From a virus, in the IMG/VR virus record IMGVR_UViG_3300044700_000293, positions 1 through 40,930 of that record: DNA of 40,930 nt; one strand, given 5' to 3'. Numbering within the stretch: the stretch's first letter is position 1; every line of letters starts with the position of its first letter. A model generated the notes under the pieces. The model ran no database searches. It worked only from the letters and a program-made list of their open reading frames with translations, and was not told the origin of the DNA. Position numbers and translations under genes: made by a program. This document shows positions 6,918 to 40,867 of this stretch, one piece after another.

Positions 6918-7648
6918 AAAAAATTTTCGTTGATTGGGACCTCCATCTGGCTCTCATGCCCACAGGATCCACATTCAAAGATAAATTTAGGATTTAAACC
7001 AAGATCATTGCGCATAATATTATTTAAAATAAATTTAATGTCCATAATATGCATTCTTGGTATCGCTTTTGCAATAAAAGCTGGGTCCGACTCCTCGTTA
7101 AGCTCGGTGACGAATCTCCAAATATTATTATAAATCTGCTCTTGGCTATTTAAAAAGGCTTCGTCGGACACCCGAGGGAATCTAACCTTAGCAGTCTTCT
7201 TTAACTTAGGTAAAGTTATTAATCTAGGGTCGGTGATCTCCTGGGGGACGTAATTTATAACTAAATCGTCCAGGTCCACGTTGATCTCGGCACCAGCCCC
7301 ACAGCTAGGGCAAGTGATCCCAGCAGGATACTTTGACCCATAGGAAATTGATCTAATTTTTAATAATAAAAATAATTTATCAATTAAAAGTAAGGAATTA
7401 ATATCAATGCCCTTGATACACTTACTTAAAATTAAATTTACTGGATTAATATTATTCTTAGAGCTTGAAGCTATCTGCTTTTCATCTTCAAACTTTATTG
7501 GGCTTATGGTTACGTCAGATACCTTGTTAAGATAAAATCTTCCCTCTGACGGGAGCCTAACTACGACATCTGCCTCTAATGGCAGTTCCCCGAATAACTG
7601 ATCTAATTTTGATTCTCTTTGATCTGCAAACTTATCTAAATTTGACAT
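6905..7648 (-). CDS. gp26-like baseplate hub / tail assembly protein
   Basis: A 247-residue protein resembling the T4 gp26 baseplate family. LPSEGRFY at about 33-40 is followed by a beta region (VTISPIKFEDEKQIA), a long helical middle, and two CxxC pairs, CPSCG and CGSCG, that probably bind one zinc. It should act in the baseplate hub or as a tail assembly chaperone. The ribosome-binding site AGGA lies 8 nt before the ATG. The gene ends right after a run of eight T residues (reverse strand), where a T TTT TTT slippery heptamer is in frame. The -1 frame beyond it stays open for 62 codons (see the extension feature). A divergent promoter for UvsW shares the 30-nt upstream gap. Confidence 0.65.
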   Translation of the reverse strand: MSNLDKFADQRESKLDQLFGELPLEADVVVRLPSEGRFYLNKVSDVTISPIKFEDEKQIASSSKNNINPVNLILSKCIKGIDINSLLLIDKLFLLLKIRSISYGSKYPAGITCPSCGAGAEINVDLDDLVINYVPQEITDPRLITLPKLKKTAKVRFPRVSDEAFLNSQEQIYNNIWRFVTELNEESDPAFIAKAIPRMHIMDIKFILNNIMRNDLGLNPKFIFECGSCGHESQMEVPINENFFSVT

Positions 7649-7671
7649 AATTGTTTCCTACTAACTATTAT
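7642..7671 (+). promoter_or_regulatory. Sigma-70 promoter of uvsW, leaderless
   Basis: A perfect -35 TTGACA (7642-7647), an 18-nt spacer and a -10 TATTAT (7666-7671). Only 7 nt separate the -10 from ATG 7679, so transcription should begin at or next to the start codon. The -35 covers the first codons of the divergent gp26-like gene. Confidence 0.65.
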
Positions 7672-7672
7672 A
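7665..7672 (-). promoter_or_regulatory. Candidate late promoter motif (TATAATAG) before the gp26-like gene
   Basis: The reverse strand reads TATAATAG 16 nt before the ATG. The same WWAATAG core lies 18-25 nt before three other late genes (22052, 25466, 39723). No TTGACA-like -35 is present in this direction. The bases overlap the forward -10 element of the UvsW promoter, so both polymerase directions would compete here. Confidence 0.35.
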
Positions 7673-7678
7673 GTAGGG

Positions 7679-9052
7679 ATGAAAATTAGATCAGGCATTA
7701 TAGATTCAATAATAGAAACAGATAACCCTAATATTATAAAAGTTTTATCTGATAAGTGGGCGTTCCATGTGAATGGCTACCAATACACCCCCACCTACAA
7801 GCGGGGACACTGGGACGGAAAGAAGCGGTTCGTATCAGCGGCTGGCAAGTTCAAGACGGGAATGCTGGCAAACATTCTTAGAGATCTCAATCAAGTCGGT
7901 TGCACCCCAGAGGTTATCAAAGAACACGGAGAGGGACCCAAGCTAATTTTCAAGCGCAATATCAAAGAGTTCAAGCTCCATGATTATCAGCAGGAAGCTA
8001 TCAGTAAGGCATTGGTCGCTGAGAGAGCTATAATCAAGTCTCCTACAGGATCAGGTAAAACTTTAATTATGGCAGCAACTCTGACTGCCTTTCCGAAGTC
8101 TAAAATTACAATCCTGTTTGACGAAAGAAGCATTCTAACCCAGACGTATGAATACCTCACGCGAAAGTGTGGATTTAAGGATGTCGGAATAAACTTAGGC
8201 GGAGACTTCAAGGATGGGCGTATCATGCTCTCAACCGTGCAGAGCATTGATAAGATCCTAGACAGCCACCTAAACCAATCAGAAGTGTTGATGGTAGACG
8301 AAGTTCACAAGTTCTGCCGTGGGGAAATGACCGTTGCAGCCATCCAGAGCTTCCCCAATGCCCGCTACCGCTTCGGATTCACTGCCACCATGCCAGATGA
8401 CCGGATCGGAGAATTGACGCTTGTAGGGGCCTTTGGTGACGTTATAGAGACTAAATCAACTCAAGAGTTGATCGCTGAGGATAAACTGGCAAAGCCCATA
8501 ATACAAATGTTGGAGTATGAGGATGAGATATCAGAACAGGATTTGGACAGCGATTACGCTACTATCTACGAGAGGTTTATTATCACCTCCGAGAAGAGAA
8601 ACGGGATCATTTTCAGTTTGGCTGCAAAGATTGCTGAAGCCAATCCAGAAGCTAAAGTTTGTATTCTCGTCAAGAATCTTGAGCATCTTCAGACGCTGAG
8701 GAATGCCATACCTAACTCATTCACGTTGGAAGGCATCAATACCATTCACGAACGTAAGGAAGCTATCAAGGATTTCCTTGAATGTGATAGCGCAGCCTTC
8801 CTAATCGGAACCAAGGTATTGCAGACTGGCATCAATATTGAAGAGATTACACACCTAGTGAATGCCAGAGGTCTGAAAGATAAGATTCCAACTTTGCAGG
8901 GTCTAGGTAGAGGAATGAGAAAATCTGTTGGAAAAACCTCTGTAATGGTATATGATTTCTTTGATCACATTCCTTACTTGAGGGAGCATTCAAAAGCCAG
9001 AATTAGACACTATGAGGACGAGGGGCATGAAGTCTCTCGGATAAAACTATGA
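7679..9052 (+). CDS. uvsW: UvsW-like superfamily 2 helicase
   Basis: A 457-residue helicase. The N-terminal module has the UvsW signature GYQYTPTYKRGHWDGKKR (33-50). Then come Walker A SPTGSGKT (121-128), motif II DEVH (207-210), motif III TAT (235-237) and a C-terminal RecA domain with QGLGRGMRKS as motif VI (about 406-415). UvsW proteins unwind branched DNA and R-loops, helping replication-fork restart and the switch from origin to recombination-dependent replication. Length and order match T4 UvsW closely. The promoter 7 nt upstream implies a leaderless mRNA. The stop overlaps the next gene by 4 nt (ATGA). Confidence 0.88.
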   Translation: MKIRSGIIDSIIETDNPNIIKVLSDKWAFHVNGYQYTPTYKRGHWDGKKRFVSAAGKFKTGMLANILRDLNQVGCTPEVIKEHGEGPKLIFKRNIKEFKLHDYQQEAISKALVAERAIIKSPTGSGKTLIMAATLTAFPKSKITILFDERSILTQTYEYLTRKCGFKDVGINLGGDFKDGRIMLSTVQSIDKILDSHLNQSEVLMVDEVHKFCRGEMTVAAIQSFPNARYRFGFTATMPDDRIGELTLVGAFGDVIETKSTQELIAEDKLAKPIIQMLEYEDEISEQDLDSDYATIYERFIITSEKRNGIIFSLAAKIAEANPEAKVCILVKNLEHLQTLRNAIPNSFTLEGINTIHERKEAIKDFLECDSAAFLIGTKVLQTGINIEEITHLVNARGLKDKIPTLQGLGRGMRKSVGKTSVMVYDFFDHIPYLREHSKARIRHYEDEGHEVSRIKL

Positions 9053-9273: not shown

Positions 9274-10464
9274 TCACCTCTCAACAATAGTAATATCCCC
9301 TGTTATTGTCGTAGCCGTAGTTGCAGATGATTTGTGCATCCAAAGCAAACAAGAATCGTTGTAAATTCTAATTCCAGGAGCTTGCTCTATTACATTTACT
9401 CCTATATTAGCCACTGGAGTTGAGAGATTTAAAACTGGTCTAGCTACGAACACAGATATAGCACCACCACCTAGGGAGGTGTTTAGAGTTATTGATTGAA
9501 CGGATTGAACACCAGAATCTCCTGCCGCTAGTTGGAAAAACACGACATTCCCAATAACTGGAGTTGCTGGGAACATATCGCCAGCAGTGTTGCTTAAGGT
9601 CGCAGTTCTAGAACCAACTCCTTTTGAGTTTGTGTAGGTGATTGTTGAGTTGCTTATGGTTCCTGCATTAGTGTTTGCTGTGGTAGTTAGAACTCCAAGC
9701 CAGCAATTCTCACCAGAAACATCACCGTTGCAATCTCTTGCAGGGAGTGGCCCAGGCATAGTTATTGTTTGAGCGGTTGTTGTAGTAACGTTTATTCCGG
9801 TATTAACCCAAAGAATATCCATTAAAGCAAAGTAATGCGGGGTCGTTGCGACTATTGCAGCTTCGGTAATGTATAAGTTCCCAGTGGTTGGAGTCCATAA
9901 AGGAATACATCCCGCATCCGTAGTTGAAGTTCCTGAGGTATTCCTACCCCCAGTTCCAGGAGTTCCAGGCGACCATGCGCCAGGGAAGCCAGTATCTTTT
10001 GAATAGCTATACCAGTATGCCGCCGCATCTGCTGCTGTTCCAACTTTATAAAAAGCTCTTGGTTTTCCTATAACTCCAGTATCTTCAGGTGAATTAACTT
10101 TTTTTCTTCCCACTGAATCAAATATATTCCAATCTGCACTGTCATTCCATATTAGGGAATCTCCCTGAGATAATGTGCAGTTGAATAATTTATAACCTGT
10201 TCCACCCACATCTTTTTGAACCGAAATAGTGTTTGCGCTAGTTGAGTTATTAAAAATATTTATTGATTTTATTCCACGATTAATACCCGTTCCGGGGGCC
10301 GCAGCTATTTCAGTTGAAGTGGCTGTAGTTATATTCCCCTGGGAATCCCCGGGGGTGAACGATGAAGATGTCACATCATTGTAAGATACAACATAATCCA
10401 CAGATCCTGCACTGCCTGTGGTTAATTTTAGAGATTTATTAGTAGAAGTTAATGCTATAGCCAT
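9274..10464 (-). CDS. Fibre-cluster virion protein
   Basis: A 396-residue protein, very rich in Thr, Ser, Gly and Asn with alternating beta patterns. It begins MAIALTSTNKSLKLTTG and ends in a beta-sandwich-like region (TTITGDITIVER). Residues about 170-200 hold a Gly/Thr-rich loop (SPGTPGTGGRNTSGTS). The composition matches phage receptor-binding or fibre-tip proteins. Its ATG directly abuts the stop of the 1557-residue fibre, so it is the last gene of the fibre operon and a candidate distal tip or collar protein. No enzymatic motif seen. Confidence 0.55.
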   Translation of the reverse strand: MAIALTSTNKSLKLTTGSAGSVDYVVSYNDVTSSSFTPGDSQGNITTATSTEIAAAPGTGINRGIKSINIFNNSTSANTISVQKDVGGTGYKLFNCTLSQGDSLIWNDSADWNIFDSVGRKKVNSPEDTGVIGKPRAFYKVGTAADAAAYWYSYSKDTGFPGAWSPGTPGTGGRNTSGTSTTDAGCIPLWTPTTGNLYITEAAIVATTPHYFALMDILWVNTGINVTTTTAQTITMPGPLPARDCNGDVSGENCWLGVLTTTANTNAGTISNSTITYTNSKGVGSRTATLSNTAGDMFPATPVIGNVVFFQLAAGDSGVQSVQSITLNTSLGGGAISVFVARPVLNLSTPVANIGVNVIEQAPGIRIYNDSCLLWMHKSSATTATTITGDITIVER

Positions 10465-28475: not shown

Positions 28476-28610
28476 TGTTCTTGGGCGGATGGGACCCTTT
28501 AAGTTTTTTTAACTTTTGATTTGATATTATAAGATAGGTCCTTCGTATATGGGGCGAAGCCCATGCCAACATGGGACCCTACGACGCGTTTTTTTCCGGT
28601 GGGAATATGT
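28476..28610 (+). other. Non-coding boundary with repeated GGGACCC/T-run elements
   Basis: This gap holds two copies of ATGGGACCCT (starting 28489 and 28571), each followed 6-9 nt later by a run of seven T (28504-28510, 28589-28595). A GGGC-GAA-GCCC hairpin lies between them (about 28551-28561). These may be successive terminators that insulate the upstream operon. Base composition changes sharply here. Confidence 0.4.
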
Positions 28611-28639
28611 TTGCACAGACCATTGTGCCATGCTAGAAT
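28611..28639 (+). promoter_or_regulatory. Leaderless promoter, transglycosylase gene
   Basis: -35 TTGCAC (28611-28616), 17-nt spacer, -10 TAGAAT (28634-28639), then 7 nt to ATG 28647. The expected transcription start falls on or next to the A of the ATG. Confidence 0.7.
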
Positions 28640-28646
28640 GCACCCC

Positions 28647-29084
28647 ATGATCCGCACGATGCTCGCTCTCCTCCTCATCGCAGCCCATGCAATGCCCCAG
28701 GCTCTCAAGGTGGCCGATCTTGATGCCATGAGGGTTGAGCATAGGGCGTTCTTGGATGCTCTGGCCCAGGTCGAGAGCGGTGGCAAGGACGATGCGGTGG
28801 GGGACAACGGCAAGGCCATTGGACGGATGCAGATCTGGGAAATCTACCATGCCGATGCAGTCCAACATGTCCGAGCCATCGGAGGGCAATATAGCGACTG
28901 CAAGGGCAAGGCATATGCCGAGCGCATCGTTATGGCCTATCTGCACCGATACGGGAAGCAAGCTCTCAAGGACAAGGACTACGAGAAGCTCGCCCGCATC
29001 CACAATGGTGGTCCGCGTGGGCACACCAAGAGTGCGACTGTAAAATACTGGCGCAAGGTCGAAAAGGCTCTTGCATCCAAGTGA
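28647..29084 (+). CDS. Secreted SLT-type lytic transglycosylase
   Basis: A 145-residue protein from ATG 28647, chosen because the promoter ends 7 nt before it and because it gives a clear signal peptide (MIRTMLALLLIAAHAMPQA). The mature part is a small lysozyme-like (GH23) domain. ALAQVESGGKDDAV carries the catalytic Glu43, GRMQI (59-63) is the substrate-groove motif, and ARIHNGGPRGH (117-126) is the usual 'YNGG' block. It should cleave peptidoglycan after export, acting in host lysis or in early wall remodelling. No holin or spanin is adjacent. Its -10 and start are the first of the leaderless series. Confidence 0.78.
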   Translation: MIRTMLALLLIAAHAMPQALKVADLDAMRVEHRAFLDALAQVESGGKDDAVGDNGKAIGRMQIWEIYHADAVQHVRAIGGQYSDCKGKAYAERIVMAYLHRYGKQALKDKDYEKLARIHNGGPRGHTKSATVKYWRKVEKALASK

Positions 29085-29098
29085 GAACTAGCTAGAAT
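29071..29098 (+). promoter_or_regulatory. Leaderless promoter within the end of the transglycosylase gene
   Basis: -35 TTGCAT (29071-29076), inside the last codons of the upstream gene; 16-nt spacer; -10 TAGAAT (29093-29098); 7 nt to ATG 29106. Confidence 0.65.
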
Positions 29099-29105
29099 CC
29101 AAACC

Positions 29106-29357
29106 ATGGAAAACTTCAAATACCTCTCGCAACTGTTCTTCGACCGTCGAGTCCTTTTCGGTAAGGAGTTCTACGGTGCATGCTGCAACATCTCGATGGC
29201 AAAGCACGCTGCGATGGAGTTGTATTGCGTGTTGTCGCCAGAATACCGCGAGATCGAAGCAGAGTTGAACCTTGCTCGTAGGTGCCTGGATGATGCAGAA
29301 GCGATCATGGAGGCAACTTTCAACCGTATTTCCAAGAAGTTCAAGGAGAAGAAGTGA
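29106..29357 (+). CDS. Helical protein of unknown function
   Basis: An 83-residue protein that is nearly all helix (EYREIEAELNLARRCLDDAE) with a basic C-terminus (SKKFKEKK). Its own promoter lies 7 nt upstream and no Shine-Dalgarno is present, so it is read as a leaderless mRNA. The stop overlaps a GTG-started zinc-ribbon gene by 4 nt, making a two-gene unit. No family recognised. Confidence 0.65.
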   Translation: MENFKYLSQLFFDRRVLFGKEFYGACCNISMAKHAAMELYCVLSPEYREIEAELNLARRCLDDAEAIMEATFNRISKKFKEKK

Positions 29358-29512
29358 CCCCAAAAGAATACGCCAAGAAGTATTGGGTGGGCCAATCTGC
29401 GCTCGCCGGATACTTTCCCAAGATCTCAGAGGGTAGCTGCAAATGCTGCGGAGCGTATGGGCAGAGGTTTGCCAGCCTTTGCAAGCATTGCTACGAAAAG
29501 GCTACCAAGTAG
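29354..29512 (+). CDS. 52-residue zinc-ribbon microprotein
   Basis: Read from GTG 29354, which overlaps the previous stop (GTGA). An AAGGAG lies about 10 nt upstream. The protein ends in a compact zinc ribbon, CKCCGAYGQRFASLCKHC, with four well-spaced cysteines, after a short basic helix (PKEYAKKYWVGQSA). Small proteins of this kind bind nucleic acids or other proteins. Coupling to the helical gene before it suggests they work together. Confidence 0.55.
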   Translation: MTPKEYAKKYWVGQSALAGYFPKISEGSCKCCGAYGQRFASLCKHCYEKATK

Positions 29513-29578
29513 TGTAAAACTTACAAGCCCGCTGCCGCGAAGCGGCTAACTTCTTATTCTACAAGGGTTTACGTCATC
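29513..29578 (+). repeat. Intergenic module, copy A
   Basis: Hairpin TGTAA-AAC-TTACA (29513-29525), then GCCGC-GAA-GCGGC (29534-29546), then the conserved 32-nt block TAACTTCTTATTCTA + CAAGGGTTTACGTCATC (29547-29578). The block lies between the end of one transcription unit and the promoter of the next. The GC hairpin and following T-rich stretch could act as a terminator. Four more copies follow. Confidence 0.75.
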
Positions 29579-29601
29579 CAAAACTTTTCTAAGATTCACG
29601 C

Positions 29602-29629
29602 TTGAACCCGTCCGATAAGTTGCTAGAAT
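29602..29629 (+). promoter_or_regulatory. Leaderless promoter after module A
   Basis: -35 TTGAAC (29602-29607), 16-nt spacer, -10 TAGAAT (29624-29629), 7 nt to ATG 29637. Confidence 0.7.
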
Positions 29630-29636
29630 CTACACC

Positions 29637-29831
29637 ATGAACCCGACGAGCTACAAGGTTACGATTAAGTCGGCCAACGCTACGACCTTCCACTACTTCG
29701 AAACCATGCAAAAGGTTGTGGCATTCTGTTTCGACCTGTATGCTATGGCAGAGTCGATTGGCGTGAAGATCGACATCGAGCTTGAAACTGGCTGCTACGA
29801 TTCACGCGGCTACGAAGTAGGGATGAACTAA
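29637..29831 (+). CDS. Small protein of unknown function
   Basis: A 64-residue protein with a beta-alpha-beta feel: VTIKSANATTFHYF, then a helix (MQKVVAFCFDLYAMAES), then VKIDIELETG. Translated from a leaderless mRNA judged by its promoter spacing. It is followed after one base by the next ATG, so the two form a small operon. No family recognised. Confidence 0.62.
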   Translation: MNPTSYKVTIKSANATTFHYFETMQKVVAFCFDLYAMAESIGVKIDIELETGCYDSRGYEVGMN

Positions 29832-29832
29832 C

Positions 29833-30204
29833 ATGAACAACGACATTCGCGTCCAAGTCTATCGGAACATTCGGAAGAACTGCTTCTCGGTGCGGGATAA
29901 GGCCACGCGCAAGGTAATCGGGCACGTTCAAGAGATTAGCTTGAAGGATTGCACGATGCACGCCAGCCTCTCTGGTATCTCGCGCATCCGGTCGAAGCGT
30001 CGCAAGGCAGTAGTCGCTTGGATCGAGGGCACTACCTTCTCGCCAGAGAACCAGCAAGAACTTTCTTGCAAACAACACGGCATTTTCTTTAACCCTTACC
30101 AAAACGATACTTGGGTCGATCATCACGGCTACCCTATCGCCCGGGCGAATGTGGTTCAGCTTGTGATGGCTGGCCCGAGTGCCTGGGTATGGGCTAATGC
30201 CTGA
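29833..30204 (+). CDS. Basic protein of unknown function
   Basis: A 123-residue protein with a beta-rich, basic first half (DIRVQVYRNIRKNCFSVRD, then RIRSKRRKAVVAW) and an aromatic C-terminus (WVDHHGYPIARANVVQLVM). The basic patch could bind nucleic acid. It starts one base after the previous stop, with GGGATG present 10 nt upstream, and ends directly before intergenic module B. No family recognised. Confidence 0.62.
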   Translation: MNNDIRVQVYRNIRKNCFSVRDKATRKVIGHVQEISLKDCTMHASLSGISRIRSKRRKAVVAWIEGTTFSPENQQELSCKQHGIFFNPYQNDTWVDHHGYPIARANVVQLVMAGPSAWVWANA

Positions 30205-30306
30205 GCGATTGTAAAATCTACAATCGCGCTGCCGCGCAGCGGCTAAGTTCTTATTTTGCAAGGGTTTAGGTCATCTGCGCACCCAAACTTCGTGCCACAA
30301 GTTTTC
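30205..30306 (+). repeat. Intergenic module, copy B
   Basis: Hairpin GCGATTGTA-AAATC-TACAATCGC (30205-30227), then GCCGC-GCA-GCGGC (30231-30243), then the 32-nt block TAAGTTCTTATTTTG + CAAGGGTTTAGGTCATC (30244-30275). A third element follows, AAACTT-CGTGCCAC-AAGTTT (within 30281-30306), which is itself an inverted repeat and recurs in copy D. Confidence 0.75.
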
Positions 30307-30318
30307 TAGCTTTTCGGC

Positions 30319-30346
30319 TTGAATCTAGCGCGCAACTTCCTAGAAT
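30319..30346 (+). promoter_or_regulatory. Leaderless promoter of the GP88-like gene
   Basis: -35 TTGAAT (30319-30324), 16-nt spacer, -10 TAGAAT (30341-30346), 7 nt to ATG 30354. Confidence 0.7.
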
Positions 30347-30353
30347 CTACCAC

Positions 30354-31142
30354 ATGAAGCTCACCGCATCGCATCCCGCGCTGACCGAAGCCCGCACAAT
30401 CCACGTTGGCGCAATCCGTCAAGTCCTGCCCAATAGCGTATTGCTGAAGCCTGCGGCGGACAATGCAAAGCTTGGCAAGGGCCAGAGCACCATTCGCAAG
30501 GGCGCATGGCGTGGGATGCCTCTCTTCACGCTCACGCTCCCCGAGCGCAGCACCTGCCCAAGTGACTGCCTGCGGTGGGACGTTTGCTACGGTAACGGCA
30601 TGGCGTTCGCCCATCGTTGGCAGCCTAGCCCCGAGTTCGAAGCAAAGCTAGAGCAAGAGATCGCAACCCTCGCCCGCTTCTATCCTCACGGCTTCGTGAT
30701 TCGCCTCCACATCCTGGGCGACTTCTACTCGGTCCAATATGTCGGTCTGTGGTTTGCAATGCTGGCAAAGCATAGCAACCTGCACGTTTTCGGCTATACT
30801 GCTCGGCATGGCCACGATCCCATCTGGACGATGCTACACCGTGTCCGCGTGGTATATGGCGACCGCTTCTGGATTCGTCAATCTCGCAACGAGGCACACG
30901 ACCGCCAAAGCCCAGAACTAATCTACGCCAGCGAGGAAGGCACGGTTTCCAACGCCATTGCCTGCCCGGAGCAAACGGGCGCAACCGATAGCTGCCTATC
31001 ATGCGGCCTATGCTGGTCAGTTAATCGCACAATCTCATTCCAGGATCACGACAAACTCAACAAAGCACGCCGCAATGCGAAAGCCGATACAGCTCGAAAG
31101 GCTATGGTTTCCACTCCTCCTTATCTTCCTGCTCATAGCTAA
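30354..31142 (+). CDS. GP88-like cysteine-rich phage protein
   Basis: A 262-residue protein resembling the GP88 family known from mycobacteriophages and other phages. LPERSTCPSDCLRWDVCYG (62-80) has Cys68, 72 and 78. The middle, VIRLHILGDFYSVQYVGLW (115-133) and HVFGYTARHGHDPIW, has the strand-helix rhythm of a TIM-like barrel. CPEQ...CLSCGLCW has Cys204, 214, 217 and 220. The two cysteine clusters suggest metal or iron-sulfur binding, and a radical-SAM-like fold is possible though the exact CxxxCxxC spacing is not kept. No activity is established for the family. It has its own leaderless promoter, and its end overlaps a small membrane-protein frame. Confidence 0.65.
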   Translation: MKLTASHPALTEARTIHVGAIRQVLPNSVLLKPAADNAKLGKGQSTIRKGAWRGMPLFTLTLPERSTCPSDCLRWDVCYGNGMAFAHRWQPSPEFEAKLEQEIATLARFYPHGFVIRLHILGDFYSVQYVGLWFAMLAKHSNLHVFGYTARHGHDPIWTMLHRVRVVYGDRFWIRQSRNEAHDRQSPELIYASEEGTVSNAIACPEQTGATDSCLSCGLCWSVNRTISFQDHDKLNKARRNAKADTARKAMVSTPPYLPAHS

Positions 31143-31173
31143 CTTCATACTCTACAAGGACTTACTACAATGA
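31075..31173 (+). CDS. 32-residue single-pass membrane microprotein
   Basis: An overlapping frame, MRKPIQLERLWF then LLLIFLLIANFILYKDLLQ, starts 68 nt before the GP88-like stop and ends in TGA overlapping the next ATG (ATGA). It has a basic N-terminus and one transmembrane helix. The perfect stop/start coupling and sensible topology support translation, but it could be chance. Confidence 0.4.
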   Translation: MRKPIQLERLWFPLLLIFLLIANFILYKDLLQ

Positions 31174-31376
31174 AGCCATCAATCCCAATGGACACTTACC
31201 TCCACAATATCTCATTGGACCTTTGCGTCGCATTTAAATATTACTATGCGCGCAATGAAATGCAAATCGCCAATGAACTGCTGACGGCATATCGCAATAT
31301 CCGCCGCCAGATTAGCAAGGGCACTGACGGCAAGCGAGTTGGCTCGCGGCAGGCATACGAGGCCATGCAGCCGTAA
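31170..31376 (+). CDS. Small helical protein of unknown function
   Basis: A 68-residue protein with two helices (LDLCVAFKYYYARNEM and NELLTAYRNIRRQISKG). The ATG overlaps the stop of the membrane microprotein. The TAA stop is part of the first hairpin of module C, so the terminator starts inside the gene. No family recognised. Confidence 0.58.
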   Translation: MKPSIPMDTYLHNISLDLCVAFKYYYARNEMQIANELLTAYRNIRRQISKGTDGKRVGSRQAYEAMQP

Positions 31377-31456
31377 GTCCTTGAAATATAAGGACTTATG
31401 CCCGGCGGGCAGCGGCGCAGCAGCTAACTTCTTATTTTCCAAGGGTTTACGTCATC
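31374..31456 (+). repeat. Intergenic module, copy C
   Basis: Perfect hairpin TAAGTCCTT-GAAATAT-AAGGACTTA (31374-31398), then GCCC-GGC-GGGC and a degenerate GC element, then the 32-nt block TAACTTCTTATTTTC + CAAGGGTTTACGTCATC (31425-31456). The loop GAAATAT is the same as in copy E. Confidence 0.72.
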
Positions 31457-31479
31457 GACAAGTTTTCCTAGATTCCCGC

Positions 31480-31507
31480 TTGAATCTAGCGCGGAAGTTC
31501 CTAGAAT
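31480..31507 (+). promoter_or_regulatory. Leaderless promoter after module C
   Basis: -35 TTGAAT (31480-31485), 16-nt spacer, -10 TAGAAT (31502-31507), 7 nt to ATG 31515. The spacer CTAGCGCG closely matches that of the GP88-like gene's promoter. Confidence 0.7.
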
Positions 31508-31514
31508 CTACAGC

Positions 31515-31706
31515 ATGAACAAGAACGCAATCGACTCGCTGATCGTTGAAGCCTTCCTGAGCAAGATCGACCTTCCCGACGTTGAGGCGTGGGTTCGCAG
31601 GCAGGCCCAGAACGATAGCATCGTTCTCACCGAAGTCTACTGCATCCGCGTCATTCTCGACTGGATGATGGACAAGAGCCAAGAAGAGCGTGAAGCTCAA
31701 CTCTGA
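31515..31706 (+). CDS. Small protein of unknown function
   Basis: A 63-residue, acidic, helical protein (SLIVEAFLSKIDLPDVEAW, then VYCIRVILDWMMDKS). It has a leaderless promoter of its own. The next promoter's -35 begins 3 nt after its stop, so the two genes are separate units despite the short gap. No family recognised. Confidence 0.62.
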   Translation: MNKNAIDSLIVEAFLSKIDLPDVEAWVRRQAQNDSIVLTEVYCIRVILDWMMDKSQEEREAQL

Positions 31707-31708
31707 GC

Positions 31709-31736
31709 TTGCATCCGATCAAAACCTTGCTAGAAT
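31709..31736 (+). promoter_or_regulatory. Leaderless promoter with the -35 directly after a stop codon
   Basis: -35 TTGCAT (31709-31714), 16-nt spacer, -10 TAGAAT (31731-31736), 8 nt to ATG 31745. The TTG of this -35 could be mistaken for a start codon, which would add a false 12-residue N-terminus to the next gene. Confidence 0.7.
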
Positions 31737-31744
31737 CCAATCCC

Positions 31745-31978
31745 ATGGAAACCATCGCAATCGTTCGCACTTCTTCGATCTCTGGTAAGCAGAACACTAG
31801 GGAGATTCCGATCTCGGTCGAAGCCTACGCCCTAGGAATGCAAGCCTGGAAGCGTGGCGAACTGATCCAGAACGCTTTCCCCATGCTCTCGCCCGCTGAC
31901 CGCGAGTTCCTCATGTCGGGCATTACGCCTGAGGAGTGGGACGAGATGTTCAGCGACGAGGACTTCGAAGATAGCTGA
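31745..31978 (+). CDS. Small acidic protein of unknown function
   Basis: A 77-residue protein from ATG 31745, placed just after the -10. It has a beta-strand start (METIAIVRTSSISG), a helix (SVEAYALGMQAWKRGELI) and a very acidic end (EEWDEMFSDEDFEDS). The helix with DREFLMSGITPEEWDEMF is reminiscent of small phage proteins fished out by host-factor binding, but no family is recognised. It ends just before module D. Confidence 0.63.
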   Translation: METIAIVRTSSISGKQNTREIPISVEAYALGMQAWKRGELIQNAFPMLSPADREFLMSGITPEEWDEMFSDEDFEDS

Positions 31979-31981
31979 TCC

Positions 31982-32081
31982 CGTTGTAACTTTTACAACG
32001 CGGCCGCCGCGAAGCGGCTAACTTCTTATTTTCCAAGGGTTTACGTCAACTACCAACCCAAACTTCGTGCCACAAGTTTTC
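31982..32081 (+). repeat. Intergenic module, copy D
   Basis: Hairpin CGTTGTAA-CTT-TTACAACG (31982-32000), then GCCGC-GAA-GCGGC (32006-32018), then the conserved block TAACTTCTTATTTTC + CAAGGGTTTACGTCA (32019-32048). The AAACTT-CGTGCCAC-AAGTTT element of copy B is repeated exactly at 32056-32081. Confidence 0.75.
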
Positions 32082-32093
32082 TTCAGTTAGTGC

Positions 32094-32121
32094 TACAATC
32101 CATCCGACAACTTGCTAGAAT
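32094..32121 (+). promoter_or_regulatory. Leaderless promoter of the DUF932-like gene
   Basis: -10 TAGAAT (32116-32121) with 7 nt to ATG 32129. The -35 at the matching distance (32094-32099) is poor (TACAAT), so this is the weakest of the series or needs an activator. The -10 and spacer (ACTTGC) match its neighbours. Confidence 0.55.
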
Positions 32122-32128
32122 CTACCCC

Positions 32129-32899
32129 ATGAGCAACTTCTCCGATCTCCAATCCTCCGTCCCCTCTCTCTTTGCCACCACCCCGCACGAATCGCGGAGC
32201 GAGCGTTACAAGTTCGTGAGCACCAAGGAATACTTGGACGCCCTCGACGCCCGTGGTTGGCTCGTTGTGAATGCTCGGCAGGTTAATACCCGCAAGAGCA
32301 CGCCCGAGCACGCGAAGCACTTTGTGACGTTGCGTCACAAGGACCACGGCGCAACCCGTTCGGACCTGGGCACCGTAGTCCCCCAGATCTCGTTCGTCAA
32401 CTCCCACAACGGCACTAGCCGCGTGGCGTTCCTCTACGGTATGTTCCGCATGATCTGCTCCAACGGCTTGATGGCTGCGACGGGCGAGTTTATGGCGCAG
32501 ACGTTCTTGCACAATCGCTCGGCCAAGGAAGCTGCCGACATTCTCACCGAAGACTTCTTTGTGCGCTCGGAGCGTCTCGTCGAGACTGCGGATCGGTGGG
32601 CAAGCGTCACGCTCGACCAGGATCAGACCCTGGAACTTGCGACGGCTGCTCGCAATATCCGGTTCGGTGCCGATTCCCTGGTCGATCCGCTTTCGCTCAA
32701 CGTGGCCCGTCGTGCCGCAGATAACGGGAACAGCCTCTGGCTCACTTTCAACCGTATTCAGGAAAATATCACGCAGGGCGGAATCCGCTTCAACGGGATG
32801 CGTCGCATGAGCCGCGCAGTAACCAATATTGCGCACGATGTCAACTACAATACGGAACTTTGGGCCGCAGCCGAGAATCTTCATCTGCAACTCGGCTGA
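32129..32899 (+). CDS. DUF932-like protein
   Basis: A 256-residue protein from ATG 32129; an earlier in-frame start at 32090 lies upstream of the -10. It follows the DUF932 pattern: RYKFVSTKEYLDALDARGW (about 28-46), a basic strand HFVTLRHKDHG, ISFVNSHNGTSRVAFLYGMFR and ICSNGLM (about 95-125), then a helical C-terminal half. The family is widespread in phages and plasmids and has no settled function; some members sit next to defence or anti-defence genes. An open antisense frame covers the whole gene but reads as a GC-driven shadow. Confidence 0.75.
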   Translation: MSNFSDLQSSVPSLFATTPHESRSERYKFVSTKEYLDALDARGWLVVNARQVNTRKSTPEHAKHFVTLRHKDHGATRSDLGTVVPQISFVNSHNGTSRVAFLYGMFRMICSNGLMAATGEFMAQTFLHNRSAKEAADILTEDFFVRSERLVETADRWASVTLDQDQTLELATAARNIRFGADSLVDPLSLNVARRAADNGNSLWLTFNRIQENITQGGIRFNGMRRMSRAVTNIAHDVNYNTELWAAAENLHLQLG

Positions 32900-32932
32900 T
32901 CGGCTCGGCACGCCGCTTGCGTGAGAGAATGA

Positions 32933-33018
32933 CCTAACCCCTTGAAATATAAGGGTTTAGGTGCGGCGCGGCAGCCGCGAAGCGGCTAAGTTCTTATTTC
33001 ACAAGGGTTTACGTCATC
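32933..33018 (+). repeat. Intergenic module, copy E
   Basis: Hairpin CCTAACCCCTT-GAAATAT-AAGGGTTTAGG with one mismatch (32933-32961), then GCCGC-GAA-GCGGC (32974-32986), then the 32-nt block TAAGTTCTTATTTCA + CAAGGGTTTACGTCATC (32987-33018). The upstream arm can also pair with the CAAGGGTTTACGTCAT of the block, giving two alternative folds. Confidence 0.75.
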
Positions 33019-33062
33019 AGGTCACCCAAGAAGTGTGCCAAACTATTTTCTGATTTTCCCGC

Positions 33063-33090
33063 TTGCATCCTCCGTCCAACTTGCTAGAAT
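33063..33090 (+). promoter_or_regulatory. Leaderless promoter after module E
   Basis: -35 TTGCAT (33063-33068), 16-nt spacer, -10 TAGAAT (33085-33090), 7 nt to ATG 33098. Confidence 0.7.
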
Positions 33091-33097
33091 CCACCGC

Positions 33098-33307
33098 ATG
33101 AAAGCTAACCCGACCTCGGAAGTCTTCGCCCTCTTGCGCATCGTCGATACGTGTCTGATCATGTCGTCGATCTGCACCTCGGATCCGATTGCGACCTTGC
33201 AAGCGATCCGCGAAGAGTGTAAGAAGGTAGCCAAGATCGAGAATGACCTCGGCATCAAGCCGTGCGCCGTCATCCAAGACCTTTTGGAGAACCCCAATGC
33301 AATCTGA
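33098..33307 (+). CDS. Small helical protein of unknown function
   Basis: A 69-residue protein from ATG 33098 (the longer frame upstream includes the promoter). It is helical, with LLRIVDTCLIMSSICTS and a charged second helix (REECKKVAKIENDLG). It is the first gene of a three-gene unit; both junctions overlap by 11 nt. No family recognised. Confidence 0.63.
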   Translation: MKANPTSEVFALLRIVDTCLIMSSICTSDPIATLQAIREECKKVAKIENDLGIKPCAVIQDLLENPNAI

Positions 33308-33590
33308 ACCCAACGAACCCGCTCCCCGTAAGCTTTACTACGTCGAAGGCCACTTCGACCAGCGCACCTACTACACCGCTTGGATCGAAGCCGACTCCAA
33401 GTCGGAAGCCCAGGACGTTGCGGAGATGATCGACCATCACGACGCGATCAGCTTTCTGCGTGAGGTGAAGGGCTACGTCGAAACCGATGCCGAGTGCTTC
33501 TCGGCGGACCATTACCGGGCCATCGCCGTCGATTCGACCAAGGATCACTTGGTGATGCCCGACCATGCCGAGACCAACCATGCAAACTAA
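33297..33590 (+). CDS. Small protein of unknown function
   Basis: A 97-residue protein from ATG 33297, with GGAG 8 nt upstream. As the second gene of its unit it uses a normal Shine-Dalgarno, unlike first genes in this region. The central phrase YYTAWIEADSKSEAQDVAEMI is a common beta-strand-plus-helix motif in small phage proteins of unknown role. Many His and Asp residues (MIDHHDA, MPDHAETNH) could bind metal. It overlaps its neighbours by 11 nt on both sides. Confidence 0.62.
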   Translation: MQSEPNEPAPRKLYYVEGHFDQRTYYTAWIEADSKSEAQDVAEMIDHHDAISFLREVKGYVETDAECFSADHYRAIAVDSTKDHLVMPDHAETNHAN

Positions 33591-33777
33591 GTTTAAAATC
33601 CACCTAGTTTCCCCTCGGCTCGGCTTGACGTTCTGTCGGGCGCAGACCAGCAAGGGGAACACAACCCGCAAAGTTGAGAACACAACTTGCAAGAACTGCA
33701 TCCGAGCCCATCAGAAATACCAAGCTGTGATGGGTGCGATTGAGTGTTTGACTTTTCGTCCGATGACCCTATCATAG
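33580..33777 (+). CDS. Small basic cysteine-containing protein
   Basis: A 65-residue protein from ATG 33580, which overlaps the previous stop by 11 nt exactly as the pair before it does. It is basic, with LTFCRAQTSKGN and TTCKNCIRAHQ; three or four cysteines could form a small zinc site. The end of the gene holds the first TTGACTTTT element (33748) as part of its coding sequence. No family recognised. Confidence 0.55.
   Translation: MQTKFKIHLVSPRLGLTFCRAQTSKGNTTRKVENTTCKNCIRAHQKYQAVMGAIECLTFRPMTLS
33748..33775 (+). promoter_or_regulatory. Promoter for tRNA-Lys, first TTGACTTTT element
   Basis: -35 TTGACT (33748-33753), 16-nt spacer, -10 TATCAT (33770-33775), inside the end of the preceding gene. 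It would give a tRNA precursor starting near 33782, whose first bases AGTTGA can pair with TCAACT at 33807-33812. A second TTGACTTTT (33831) sits 6 nt before the tRNA but has no -10. Confidence 0.5.
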
Positions 33778-33842
33778 CCTAGTTGAGCCTGGGCACGAAC
33801 GAGCCTTCAACTCGGAGTGAAATCTTAGGCTTGACTTTTCAC

Positions 33843-33918
33843 GGGACCGTAGCTCAGTTGGTAGAGCAGTAGACTTTTAATCTATCGGTCGAAGGTTCGA
33901 TCCCTTCCGGTCCTACCA
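33843..33918 (+). tRNA. tRNA-Lys (anticodon TTT)
   Basis: Full cloverleaf: acceptor GGGACCG with CGGTCCT (one G-T pair), D-loop AGTTGGTAGA, anticodon stem GTAGA/TCTAT with loop CTTTTAA, T-arm GAAGG-TTCGATC-CCTTC, and encoded CCA. It reads AAA and AAG lysine codons, which are frequent in the AT-rich late genes. Confidence 0.95.
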
Positions 33919-33924
33919 TTAGGC

Positions 33925-33953
33925 TTGACTTTTCCTACACCATACACTAGGAT
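33925..33953 (+). promoter_or_regulatory. Leaderless promoter of TTGACTTTT type
   Basis: -35 TTGACT (33925-33930), 17-nt spacer, -10 TAGGAT (33948-33953), 6 nt to ATG 33960. It follows the tRNA-Lys 3' end after 6 nt. Confidence 0.7.
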
Positions 33954-33959
33954 ACCCTC

Positions 33960-34223
33960 ATGGAAACCAAGACCCTGCAATACGTTTCTCTCAGTGAGAT
34001 CTTCCAGGACTGCGACGAGATCCTGCAATGGTTCGGAGAGCATTCGGACCTTACCTGGGGTGGTGCTACCTTTACGCTAACCTCCCTCAATAGGATTGCG
34101 GTCGAGGTGGACTTTGCAAAGGTATACTACCTCACGCAGCCAGAAGTGCTGGATCAGGCTAACCTTGTGCTGCAAAGGTTGTCGGATCTCCCTCGGGATA
34201 CCATGGTTGACCTCGAAAGCTGA
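33960..34223 (+). CDS. Small acidic protein, tandem paralogue 1
   Basis: An 87-residue protein clearly related to the next gene. They share the order SLSEIFQDCDEILQWF, DLTWGGATFTL, a variable middle, then VLDQANLVLQRL and LP...DLES. Both are acidic and probably alpha/beta. A leaderless promoter directly precedes the ATG. No known family recognised; the pair looks like a gene duplication within the phage. Confidence 0.68.
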   Translation: METKTLQYVSLSEIFQDCDEILQWFGEHSDLTWGGATFTLTSLNRIAVEVDFAKVYYLTQPEVLDQANLVLQRLSDLPRDTMVDLES

Positions 34224-34226
34224 GGC

Positions 34227-34255
34227 TTGACTTTTCCTACACCATACACTAGGAT
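34227..34255 (+). promoter_or_regulatory. Leaderless promoter of TTGACTTTT type
   Basis: -35 TTGACT (34227-34232), 17-nt spacer, -10 TAGGAT (34250-34255), 6 nt to ATG 34262. Starts 3 nt after a stop codon; nearly identical to the preceding promoter over its whole length. Confidence 0.7.
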
Positions 34256-34261
34256 ACTCAC

Positions 34262-34519
34262 ATGAAGGTTCATGCCATCGCCTGTGTTTCCGCCAGTGAT
34301 CTCTTCTGGGGCTGCGAAGAAGCTTTCGATTGGTTTGTAGAGGCTACTGATTTCACCTTTGGTGACGCTAACTTTACACTGATCACCCCCGAAAAGATTT
34401 CCAAGCTTTGCGAAGACGCAATGAAAGTTTACCGTAATGAGATCTACGATCAAGTTAAGATTGTGATTGAAAGGTTACATAATCTTCCAACCGGGATTCT
34501 GATCGACCTCGAAAACTGA
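34262..34519 (+). CDS. Small acidic protein, tandem paralogue 2
   Basis: An 85-residue relative of the preceding gene: SASDLFWGCEEAFDWF, DFTFGDANFTL, then YDQVKIVIERL and LPTGILIDLEN. The matching promoter, matching start and matching gene show that gene and promoter were duplicated together. Function unknown. Confidence 0.68.
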   Translation: MKVHAIACVSASDLFWGCEEAFDWFVEATDFTFGDANFTLITPEKISKLCEDAMKVYRNEIYDQVKIVIERLHNLPTGILIDLEN

Positions 34520-34522
34520 GGC

Positions 34523-34551
34523 TTGACTTTTCCAACCCCCTACCCTAGAAT
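34523..34551 (+). promoter_or_regulatory. Leaderless promoter of TTGACTTTT type
   Basis: -35 TTGACT (34523-34528), 17-nt spacer, -10 TAGAAT (34546-34551), 6 nt to ATG 34558. Confidence 0.7.
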
Positions 34552-34557
34552 ACTCAC

Positions 34558-34842
34558 ATGGTCAAAGTAAACAACTCGGATAAAGTTTTCACTATGCCTC
34601 TTACTAAGGCTACGATTGCACCTATGACATGGTTCGAATACCATGGGCAACTTTACATTGCATTCGAATGGCAACACGATGCAAGTTTTAATCCCGTTAA
34701 GACTACCTTGAGGGCTGTCTGCTTCGATCCAACCTATGGTGCCATCGAATCCCTTTTCACGGAAAGCCCAGATTTCCAAGTTAGGCTCGTCTACGATAAG
34801 GATGTTTCCATCAACTATACCACTGCCAAGAACCACGTATAA
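34558..34842 (+). CDS. Small protein of unknown function
   Basis: A 94-residue beta-rich protein (MTWFEYHGQLYIAFEW, then TTLRAVCFDPTYGAIE and FQVRLVYDKDVSINY). It may form a small barrel. A leaderless promoter precedes it and the next promoter begins directly at its stop. No family recognised. Confidence 0.63.
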   Translation: MVKVNNSDKVFTMPLTKATIAPMTWFEYHGQLYIAFEWQHDASFNPVKTTLRAVCFDPTYGAIESLFTESPDFQVRLVYDKDVSINYTTAKNHV

Positions 34843-34846
34843 GGGC

Positions 34847-34874
34847 TTGACTTTTCTGGCCCCTACCCTACAAT
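34847..34874 (+). promoter_or_regulatory. Promoter of TTGACTTTT type with a short leader
   Basis: -35 TTGACT (34847-34852), 16-nt spacer, -10 TACAAT (34869-34874), then 10 nt including AGAGGA before ATG 34885. The expected leader is about 3 nt, too short for the GAGG to work as a full ribosome-binding site. Confidence 0.65.
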
Positions 34875-34884
34875 AGAGGATACC

Positions 34885-35073
34885 ATGAAGAATAAGTTTG
34901 AAACCAAGTTTAAGAAGATCAAAACTAACGACGGGGATAAGATTGTAGCCCGAGTCTGGGATACTTATTCTCAGGTGTGGCGACTGTTCTCTGATTATGA
35001 TTCTATCCCACCTAGCATTAAGGCTGCAATGATGCCTGAGGAAAGGGATCTGATTTACATCAAGCTGGCTTGA
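34885..35073 (+). CDS. Small basic protein of unknown function
   Basis: A 62-residue protein that starts very basic (MKNKFETKFKKIKTNDGDK), continues with VWDTYSQVWRLFSDYD and ends ERDLIYIKLA. The stop codon TGA lies inside the TTGACT of the next promoter. No family recognised. Confidence 0.6.
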   Translation: MKNKFETKFKKIKTNDGDKIVARVWDTYSQVWRLFSDYDSIPPSIKAAMMPEERDLIYIKLA

Positions 35074-35097
35074 CTTTTCCCACCCCTATCCTATAAT
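35070..35097 (+). promoter_or_regulatory. Promoter of the tRNA-like/tRNA-Leu unit
   Basis: -35 TTGACT (35070-35075), 16-nt spacer, perfect -10 TATAAT (35092-35097). The expected start near 35103 lies about 6 nt before the first structured RNA. This is the best match to consensus in the series, fitting a stable-RNA gene. Confidence 0.7.
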
Positions 35098-35201: not shown

Positions 35202-35279
35202 GTGGGCGTAGTCCAACAGGCAGGAGACAAAGAACTTAAAATTCTTCCAGTGTGAGTTCGAATCTCACCGCCCATACCA
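35202..35279 (+). tRNA. tRNA with anticodon TAA (Leu), short variable loop
   Basis: Acceptor GTGGGCG with CGCCCAT, D-arm GTC-loop-GAC, anticodon stem AAGAA/TTCTT with loop CTTAAAA, T-arm GTGAG-TTCGAAT-CTCAC and encoded CCA. The anticodon UAA reads UUA. Bacterial leucine tRNAs have a long variable arm; this one has only five bases (CCAGT), so its charging identity is uncertain. It starts 4 nt after the tRNA-like RNA. Confidence 0.8.
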
Positions 35280-36268: not shown

Positions 36269-36376
36269 GGCAGGATCGTATAAAGTAATACACCCATTCG
36301 TATATCCGTCATAACAACAGCCAATACCTTAGAACTTAAATGGGAAATGAGAGTGCGAGACTCTCTCCTGCCACCA
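36269..36376 (+). ncRNA. tRNA-like RNA with a 42-nt anticodon loop
   Basis: A 108-nt element with every arm of a class I tRNA in place: acceptor GGCAGGA/TCCTGCC, D-arm GTAT-AAAGTA-ATAC, anticodon stem CCCAT/ATGGG, short variable AAAT, T-arm GAGAG-TGCGAGA-CTCTC, A and CCA. The anticodon stem closes a loop of 42 nt instead of 7. No conserved U33 is obvious at the 5' side. Options are a small intron-like insertion, a tRNA mimic, or a gene broken by insertion. Confidence 0.5.
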
Positions 36377-40839: not shown

Positions 40840-40867
40840 ATTATAGAGTCTGAAGTTCAAGGATCAA
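40840..40867 (-). promoter_or_regulatory. Leaderless promoter on the minus strand
   Basis: -35 TTGATC (40862-40867), 16-nt spacer, -10 TATAAT (40840-40845), then 6 nt to ATG 40833. It likely also drives tRNA-Thr and tRNA-Gly. The -35 includes the stop codon of the upstream gene. Confidence 0.65.

Follow-up and report, generated by a model that had tools for sequence, protein, structure and literature searches.

The 40,930-base record IMGVR_UViG_3300044700_000293 of an uncultured virus of bacteria, analyzed here over its full length (the window), carries genes for a T4-like terminase, a portal protein and a UvsW-like helicase, recognized by family profiles and by distant tblastn matches to T4-type terminases, and on this gene content it belongs to the T4-like myoviruses. 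Between 28.6 and 35.1 kb lie about 17 small plus-strand genes and a tRNA-Lys gene, with a tRNA-Leu gene just past the region end; the proteins encoded include destabilase/lysozyme-like, L5 gp82-like, GP88-like and DUF932 proteins. Our subject is the promoters of this region, which stand so close to the start codons that most of its transcription units would very likely be expressed as leaderless mRNAs.

Promoter and start codon geometry

All twelve ATGs listed in the first-pass annotation of this DNA were located where it had placed them, with a TAnnnT box 6-8 nt upstream (10 nt at 34885). The -10 is TAGAAT at nine of them, TAGGAT at two (33960 and 34262) and TACAAT at one (34885), an arrangement that agrees with the leaderless TA-like signal, TAnnnT with its first T about 10-12 nt ahead of the start codon. 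The sigma-70-type pattern TTGnnn-N16/17-TAnnnT is found at 11 of the 12, with a spacer of 16 or 17 nt behind a -35 that starts with TTG; the exception, 32129, lacks such a -35, and the eleven pairs at 16-17 nt that had been claimed are good ones but have twelve ATGs to serve. TAGAAT-N7-ATG occurs exactly seven times in the window, all within 28.6-33.1 kb. The units, with d as the number of nucleotides that separate the -10 from the ATG, are as follows.

28611..29084 (+): destabilase/lysozyme-like gene unit; -35 TTGCAC 28611-28616, -10 TAGAAT 28634-28639, ATG 28647, d 7
29071..29357 (+): 83-aa orphan gene unit; -35 TTGCAT 29071-29076, -10 TAGAAT 29093-29098, ATG 29106, d 7
29354..29512 (+): second gene of the 29106 unit; GTG start, strong Shine-Dalgarno (SD) sequence AAGGAG, -8.5 kcal/mol
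29602..29831 (+): 64-aa gene unit; -35 TTGAAC 29602-29607, -10 TAGAAT 29624-29629, ATG 29637, d 7
29833..30204 (+): second gene of the 29637 unit, L5 gp82-like (PF25735), SD-led
30319..31142 (+): GP88-like gene unit; -35 TTGAAT 30319-30324, -10 TAGAAT 30341-30346, ATG 30354, d 7
31170..31376 (+): second gene of the 30354 unit; SD AAGGA
31480..31706 (+): unit of ATG 31515; -35 TTGAAT 31480-31485, -10 TAGAAT 31502-31507, d 7
31709..31978 (+): phrog_20898 gene unit; -35 TTGCAT 31709-31714, -10 TAGAAT 31731-31736, ATG 31745, d 8
32094..32899 (+): DUF932 gene unit; degenerate -35 TACAAT 32094-32099 (16 nt), -10 TAGAAT 32116-32121, ATG 32129, d 7
33063..33307 (+): unit of ATG 33098; -35 TTGCAT 33063-33068, -10 TAGAAT 33085-33090, d 7
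33297..33590 (+): second gene of the 33098 unit; SD GGAG, -6.4 kcal/mol
33925..34223 (+): unit of ATG 33960; -35 TTGACT 33925-33930, -10 TAGGAT 33948-33953, d 6
34227..34519 (+): unit of ATG 34262; -35 TTGACT 34227-34232, -10 TAGGAT 34250-34255, d 6
34523..34842 (+): unit of ATG 34558; -35 TTGACT 34523-34528, -10 TAGAAT 34546-34551, d 6
34847..35073 (+): unit of ATG 34885; -35 TTGACT 34847-34852, -10 TACAAT 34869-34874, d 10; SD GAGG
7642..7679 (+): uvsW promoter; TTGACA-N18-TATTAT, ATG 7679, d 7
40840..40867 (-): promoter of the 40833 gene; -35 TTGATC, -10 TATAAT, ATG 40833, d 6

A uniform rule was then applied to the whole window: a -35 starting TTG, a spacer of 15-18 nt, a TAnn[AC]T box, at least 8 of 12 consensus bases and an ATG opening at least 30 codons, with promoter-ATG distances of 12-60 nt as the internal control for expected counts. 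Twelve pairs were found at 6-8 nt compared to 0.6 expected, and 10 of these are inside the region. The remaining two belong to uvsW (7679) and 40833, which had been said to follow the same arrangement; both keep the distance, but the uvsW promoter has an 18-nt spacer and TATTAT as its -10, and 40833 lies on the minus strand. The uvsW layout is also present in one relative (contig of L030).

Translation signals

The strength of SD sequences was calculated as the pairing energy of the bases ahead of the start with the anti-Shine-Dalgarno. For the first genes of the units the mean was -0.8 kcal/mol and only 34885 fell below -4.5, while two others showed a weak pairing of -4.0 kcal/mol located within the -10 itself. 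The internal genes of the region averaged -5.2 kcal/mol, with 5/7 below -4.5, and the minus-strand genes -3.5 kcal/mol, with 7/20 below -4.5. An SD is present at the second genes 29354, 29833, 31170 and 33297. The claim that first genes lack an SD and second genes have one thus stands for 11 of the 12 first genes and usually for the second genes, but not for 34885, the 10-nt case, whose GAGG pairs at -5.8 kcal/mol and which is probably an exception with a very short leader. With that exception, the first genes have the SD-free start codons of the leaderless TA-like class and, since SD sequences are in use elsewhere in the phage, it is selectively the first genes that are without them.

Comparison with L001, a relative with ~88% DNA identity to the window, showed that codons 2-15 of nine region genes have a ratio of nonsynonymous to synonymous differences (pN/pS) of 0.50, and 0.25 further in. 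In the GP88-like gene, pN is well below pS at codons 2-17, indicating purifying selection down to a homolog of 57% identity. Coding constraint thus begins at the listed ATGs, and translation very probably starts there.

Conservation of the layout in related phages

About 170 loci were gathered by searches with the terminase and the region genes. L004 and L005 are single pattern matches and were not treated as relatives. In L001 the -10-to-ATG distance is identical at 10/10 comparable promoters, and changes relative to the window were found at 1/60 positions of the -10, 5/60 of the -35, 4/69 of the discriminator, 21/166 of the spacer and 35/242 of the upstream DNA. In distant relatives the boxes themselves are different (-10 TATACT, TATCAT, TATAAT or TACAAT; -35 TTGAAT, TTGCCC, TTCACA or TTGCAA) and the distance to the ATG is unchanged. 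Sites at 6-8 nt number seven in L003, three each in L018, L023 and L044, and two each in L025, L039 and L065; L173 has five, together with three at 9 nt. The L171 phage, whose terminase and portal are 45% and 47% identical to those of the window, has 12-13 sites, all confined to one 6.6-kb stretch with none in the rest of the 80 kb read. Arrays were absent from the 10 kb upstream of the terminase in L062, L082 and L083, so not every member of the family has the trait.

A search of the related phages for -10 elements 6-8 nt before ATGs, restricted to non-redundant sites that lie upstream of the terminase or in L171/L173/L174, bore out the annotation, with 57 sites compared to 4.4 expected (Poisson p about 2e-42, a significance that is overstated because related sites are treated as independent). 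When the window, L001 and the L171/L173/L174 group were left out, the terminase relatives still gave 26 sites compared to 2.3 expected, and the contrast between observed and expected counts is large despite the shared descent of the sites.

Individual genes show the same pattern. The GP88-like gene is led by TAGAAT at d 7 in the window, TAGAAT at d 6 in L003, TATACT at d 6 in L023 and L089, and TACAAT at d 6 in L171, and its layout is also kept in L001; the lysozyme-like gene is led by TAGAAT at d 7 in the window and L003, TATAAT at d 7 in L171 and TATACT at d 6 in L173, and likewise keeps the layout in L001. The layout was present in 14/95 matches examined for either gene, two of which (L169 and L170) have their ATG well 5' of the aligned portion. 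The majority of the other phages carrying a GP88-like gene are without the layout, which is thus a trait of the lineage and not a property of the gene.

These counts bear on the trivial explanation that AT-rich hexamers pair with ATGs by chance or through a composition artefact. Single consensus matches are indeed common in viral contigs, among the matches listed. However, the region is richer in GC than the rest of the window (0.50-0.57 at 28600-34000, compared to about 0.40 elsewhere), the internal distance controls show strong excesses in both the window and its relatives, and 120 viral contigs picked for one perfect consensus site with an ATG 6-7 nt away contained 44 other sites compared to 34.6 expected, which is little excess. 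We therefore regard chance as extremely improbable. The same test gave 5 pairs at 6-8 nt compared to 0.7 expected in the first 50 kb of the Thermus phage phiYS40, our positive control, and the -10 enrichment 6-7 nt before phage open reading frames (ORFs) that characterizes phiYS40 is found in the window as well. There was no clear excess in T4 (2 compared to 0.7 expected), none in the first 50 kb of another Thermus phage, P23-45, and twelve isolates sharing genes or the terminase with the window (Lucius, CRP-361, 45A6, RcZahn, GAP32, XbC2, P26059A, immuto, DLP6, phiXF1, Mel-JY01 and ACP17) were at background level without such arrays. Together with the 120 contigs, these isolates indicate that arrays like that of the window are uncommon.

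The base before the ATG

Bacterial RNA polymerase generally favours start sites whose purine at +1 is preceded by a pyrimidine at -1, and an ATG lying 6-8 nt behind the -10 has its A at the favoured start position. The base preceding the ATG was C in 48/57 of the non-redundant sites and C or T in 54/57, compared to a mixed composition in control ORFs (A 24, C 19, T 16, G 13). The C at -1 is the strongest sequence argument that transcription begins at the ATG itself rather than a few bases earlier. It also bears on the possibility that the promoters are real but that starts drift 5-15 nt upstream, or that transcripts come mainly from farther promoters, giving SD-independent short leaders. The 10-nt gap and GAGG of 34885, one L003 first gene at d 10 and some L173/L174 sites at d 9 would fit this, but the distances are sharply peaked at 6-7, the C at -1 is nearly fixed, and a drifting start would not keep the ATG in register within 1 nt. 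We consider this reading unlikely.

Intergenic modules and hairpins

Five intergenic regions share a module of 110-150 nt, and in each the promoter follows a conserved CAAGGGTTTACGTCATC block. The copies precede 29637, 30354, 31515, 32129 and 33098; the first is described below, and the others end at about 30318, 31479, 32093 and 33062.

29505..29600 (+): intergenic module, made up of an AT-rich hairpin, a second hairpin (GCCGC-GAA-GCGGC) followed by a T-rich tail, and the conserved CAAGGGTTTACGTCATC block

Terminator prediction flags two of the copies, and the hairpins would be terminators of the preceding units. RNAalifold gave no compensatory support for module structure beyond the invariant GC hairpin, as this hairpin hardly varies in the alignment. 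The conservation of the block downstream of the GC hairpin goes further, suggesting that it may be a protein site as well. The GCGGCTAAsTTCTTATT...CAAGGGTTTACGTCATC block is nearly invariant in the window modules and in L001, and its distance to the -35 falls into two classes ~20 nt apart, near two helical turns; possibly the block is an operator.

Since the five copies share sequence upstream of the promoter, the copying of one duplicated module might by itself have fixed the place of the ATG, without selection on leaderless expression. However, the 33960-34558 family and 40833 differ in sequence and keep 6-8 nt, as do the differing promoters of L018, L023, L025, L039, L044, L065, L171 and L173, and the -10 and its distance are better conserved than the flanks, so that we consider this explanation very improbable.

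Proposed leaderless cassettes, timing and host

Our preferred explanation, which we hold to be very likely from the sequence evidence, is that the transcription units of the region are self-contained terminator-promoter-ORF cassettes, which the host polymerase transcribes into leaderless mRNAs. In most cassettes a hairpin that is probably a terminator would close off the gene before, followed by a sigma-70-type promoter of the host kind and then by an ORF with its start codon at the point where transcription begins. From the -35/-10, host RNA polymerase would start 7-9 nt past the -10, at the A of the ATG; in the preferred position this A is usually the sole purine that follows a pyrimidine. 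The transcript would then begin 5'-AUG and be translated by leaderless initiation, with second genes of the same transcript using their SD. The layout is probably real and selected, because distant relatives share it under promoters of different sequence. The annotation's proposal that transcription starts at or within a few bases of the start codons is well supported, computationally, by the distance enrichment, the kept geometry, the C at -1, the missing SD, the coding constraint and the phiYS40 control. The sequences themselves show the spacing, its conservation, the missing SD and the coding constraint at the start, while the actual start sites, leaderless translation, the terminators and early timing are inferred.

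Several points weigh against this explanation. Starts on the ATG and starts 1-3 nt ahead of it are indistinguishable here, the T runs in the hairpin tails are imperfect, and the conservation of the T-rich block exceeds what a terminator needs. Another promoter or an operator could lie at a conserved block located 30-50 nt farther upstream. Several of the window copies derive from one duplicated intergenic module and, owing to this shared origin, are not independent of each other, and the Poisson significance is likewise overstated.

Early timing is plausible, because sigma-70-like boxes need no phage factor. The suggestion that leaderless expression would constrain the host is weaker than claimed, given that a survey found leaderless TA-like signals in further groups, among them Acidobacteria, delta-Proteobacteria and Aquificae (PMC3160421). 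When genome contigs were scanned for the GP88-like protein family, no relative was found, and a 57-base stretch of the phage's tRNA-Gly gave no exact match. Leaderless signals span too many phyla to single out one, and both host searches were negative. The L5 gp82-like and GP88-like genes and matches to phages of Mycobacterium, Gordonia, Rhodococcus and Streptomyces hint weakly at an actinobacterial host, and this hint was not relied on because alphaproteobacterial phages also carry GP88-like genes. The layout might save space, let single-gene units be shuffled easily, or free the phage from SD competition. More tentatively, and less likely than not in our view, the region might be a host-takeover module, carried by this phage lineage, of self-contained leaderless cassettes whose first proteins are made by leaderless (70S) initiation and so evade SD competition, in a host possibly not known for leaderless expression.

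Relation to known systems

There are precedents both for leaderless mRNAs in phages and for -10 boxes that abut ORFs. The middle and late mRNAs of phiYS40 are reported to be leaderless (PMC3594737), and this large phage resembles the window in having transcripts of its own without leaders and in being positive in the promoter-ATG test. It differs in that middle and late genes are concerned, the host itself is widely leaderless, IF2 (initiation factor 2) is raised and IF3 is lowered (PMC3594737), whereas in the window small genes with promoters of host type form an array; the likeness is one of layout, and no sequence relation is claimed. A -10 motif adjacent to ORFs was described in Deinococcus-Thermus (PMC12340547), and these genes and those of the survey share with the window a TAnnnT ~6-7 nt before the start, no SD and an inferred or shown leaderless mRNA, but they are chromosomal and belong to particular phyla, while those of the window belong to a phage, have good -35 boxes and form a compact array. 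The lambda cI mRNA also starts at its AUG (PMC9031893), as a single gene and not an array.

T4 is a phage of the same type (terminase, portal and UvsW) with many small genes under their own sigma-70-type early promoters. Its rule, however, is leaders with an SD, and it has no clear excess at 6-8 nt; no SD-bearing leader separates promoter and gene in the cassettes of the window. We found no description of a gene-by-gene leaderless array in a T4-like phage in the literature searched, most subscription papers being outside it, and such an array in this lineage thus appears to be undescribed. An array in which almost all transcription units start on their AUG, kept across phages with about 45% identical terminases, would be a natural test bed for the viral choice of leaderless initiation. 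Programs that call start sites by their SD will overlook small genes of this sort or place their starts wrongly, and environmental phages can be sorted cheaply by the -10/ATG register.

Other features of the region

The region has two further promoters of this kind that have no ATG behind them and precede tRNA genes.

33748..33775 (+): TTGACT-N16-TATCAT, 5' of tRNA-Lys (33843-33918)
35070..35097 (+, region end): TTGACT-N16-TATAAT, 5' of tRNA-Leu (35202-35279)

In L171, a perfect promoter, TTGACA-N17-TATAAT (10315-10343, plus strand), is likewise followed by no ATG, with a long leader or a non-coding transcript behind it.

The element TTGACTTTT, mostly CTTGACTTTT, has 13 plus-strand copies in 33.7-36.5 kb, often directly after a gene end (33748, 33831, 33925, 34227, 34523, 34847, 35070, 35504, 35784, 35937, 36044, 36387 and 36505). 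Most are also present in L001, and a -10 stands behind only some of them. One copy begins 12 nt 5' of tRNA-Lys and a variant lies ~12 nt 5' of the tRNA-like RNA described below; the element may be more than a -35 box.

The GC content of the 28600-34000 stretch possibly reflects foreign origin or adaptation to a GC-rich host, and sequences upstream of the terminase in several relatives are likewise GC-richer. In L003, L018, L025 and L039, otherwise dissimilar small proteins, mostly from leaderless genes, share the tail D-E/N-G-Y/F-DPYxNxYTDDC.

Downstream of the region, a 108-nt tRNA-like RNA (36269-36376, plus strand) was not reported by ARAGORN and had no match to any Rfam tRNA model. It has the acceptor GGCAGGA/TCCTGCC followed by ACCA and the T arm GAGAG-TGCGAGA-CTCTC, which in L001 is GAGGG-TGCGAAA-CCCTC, a compensatory change.

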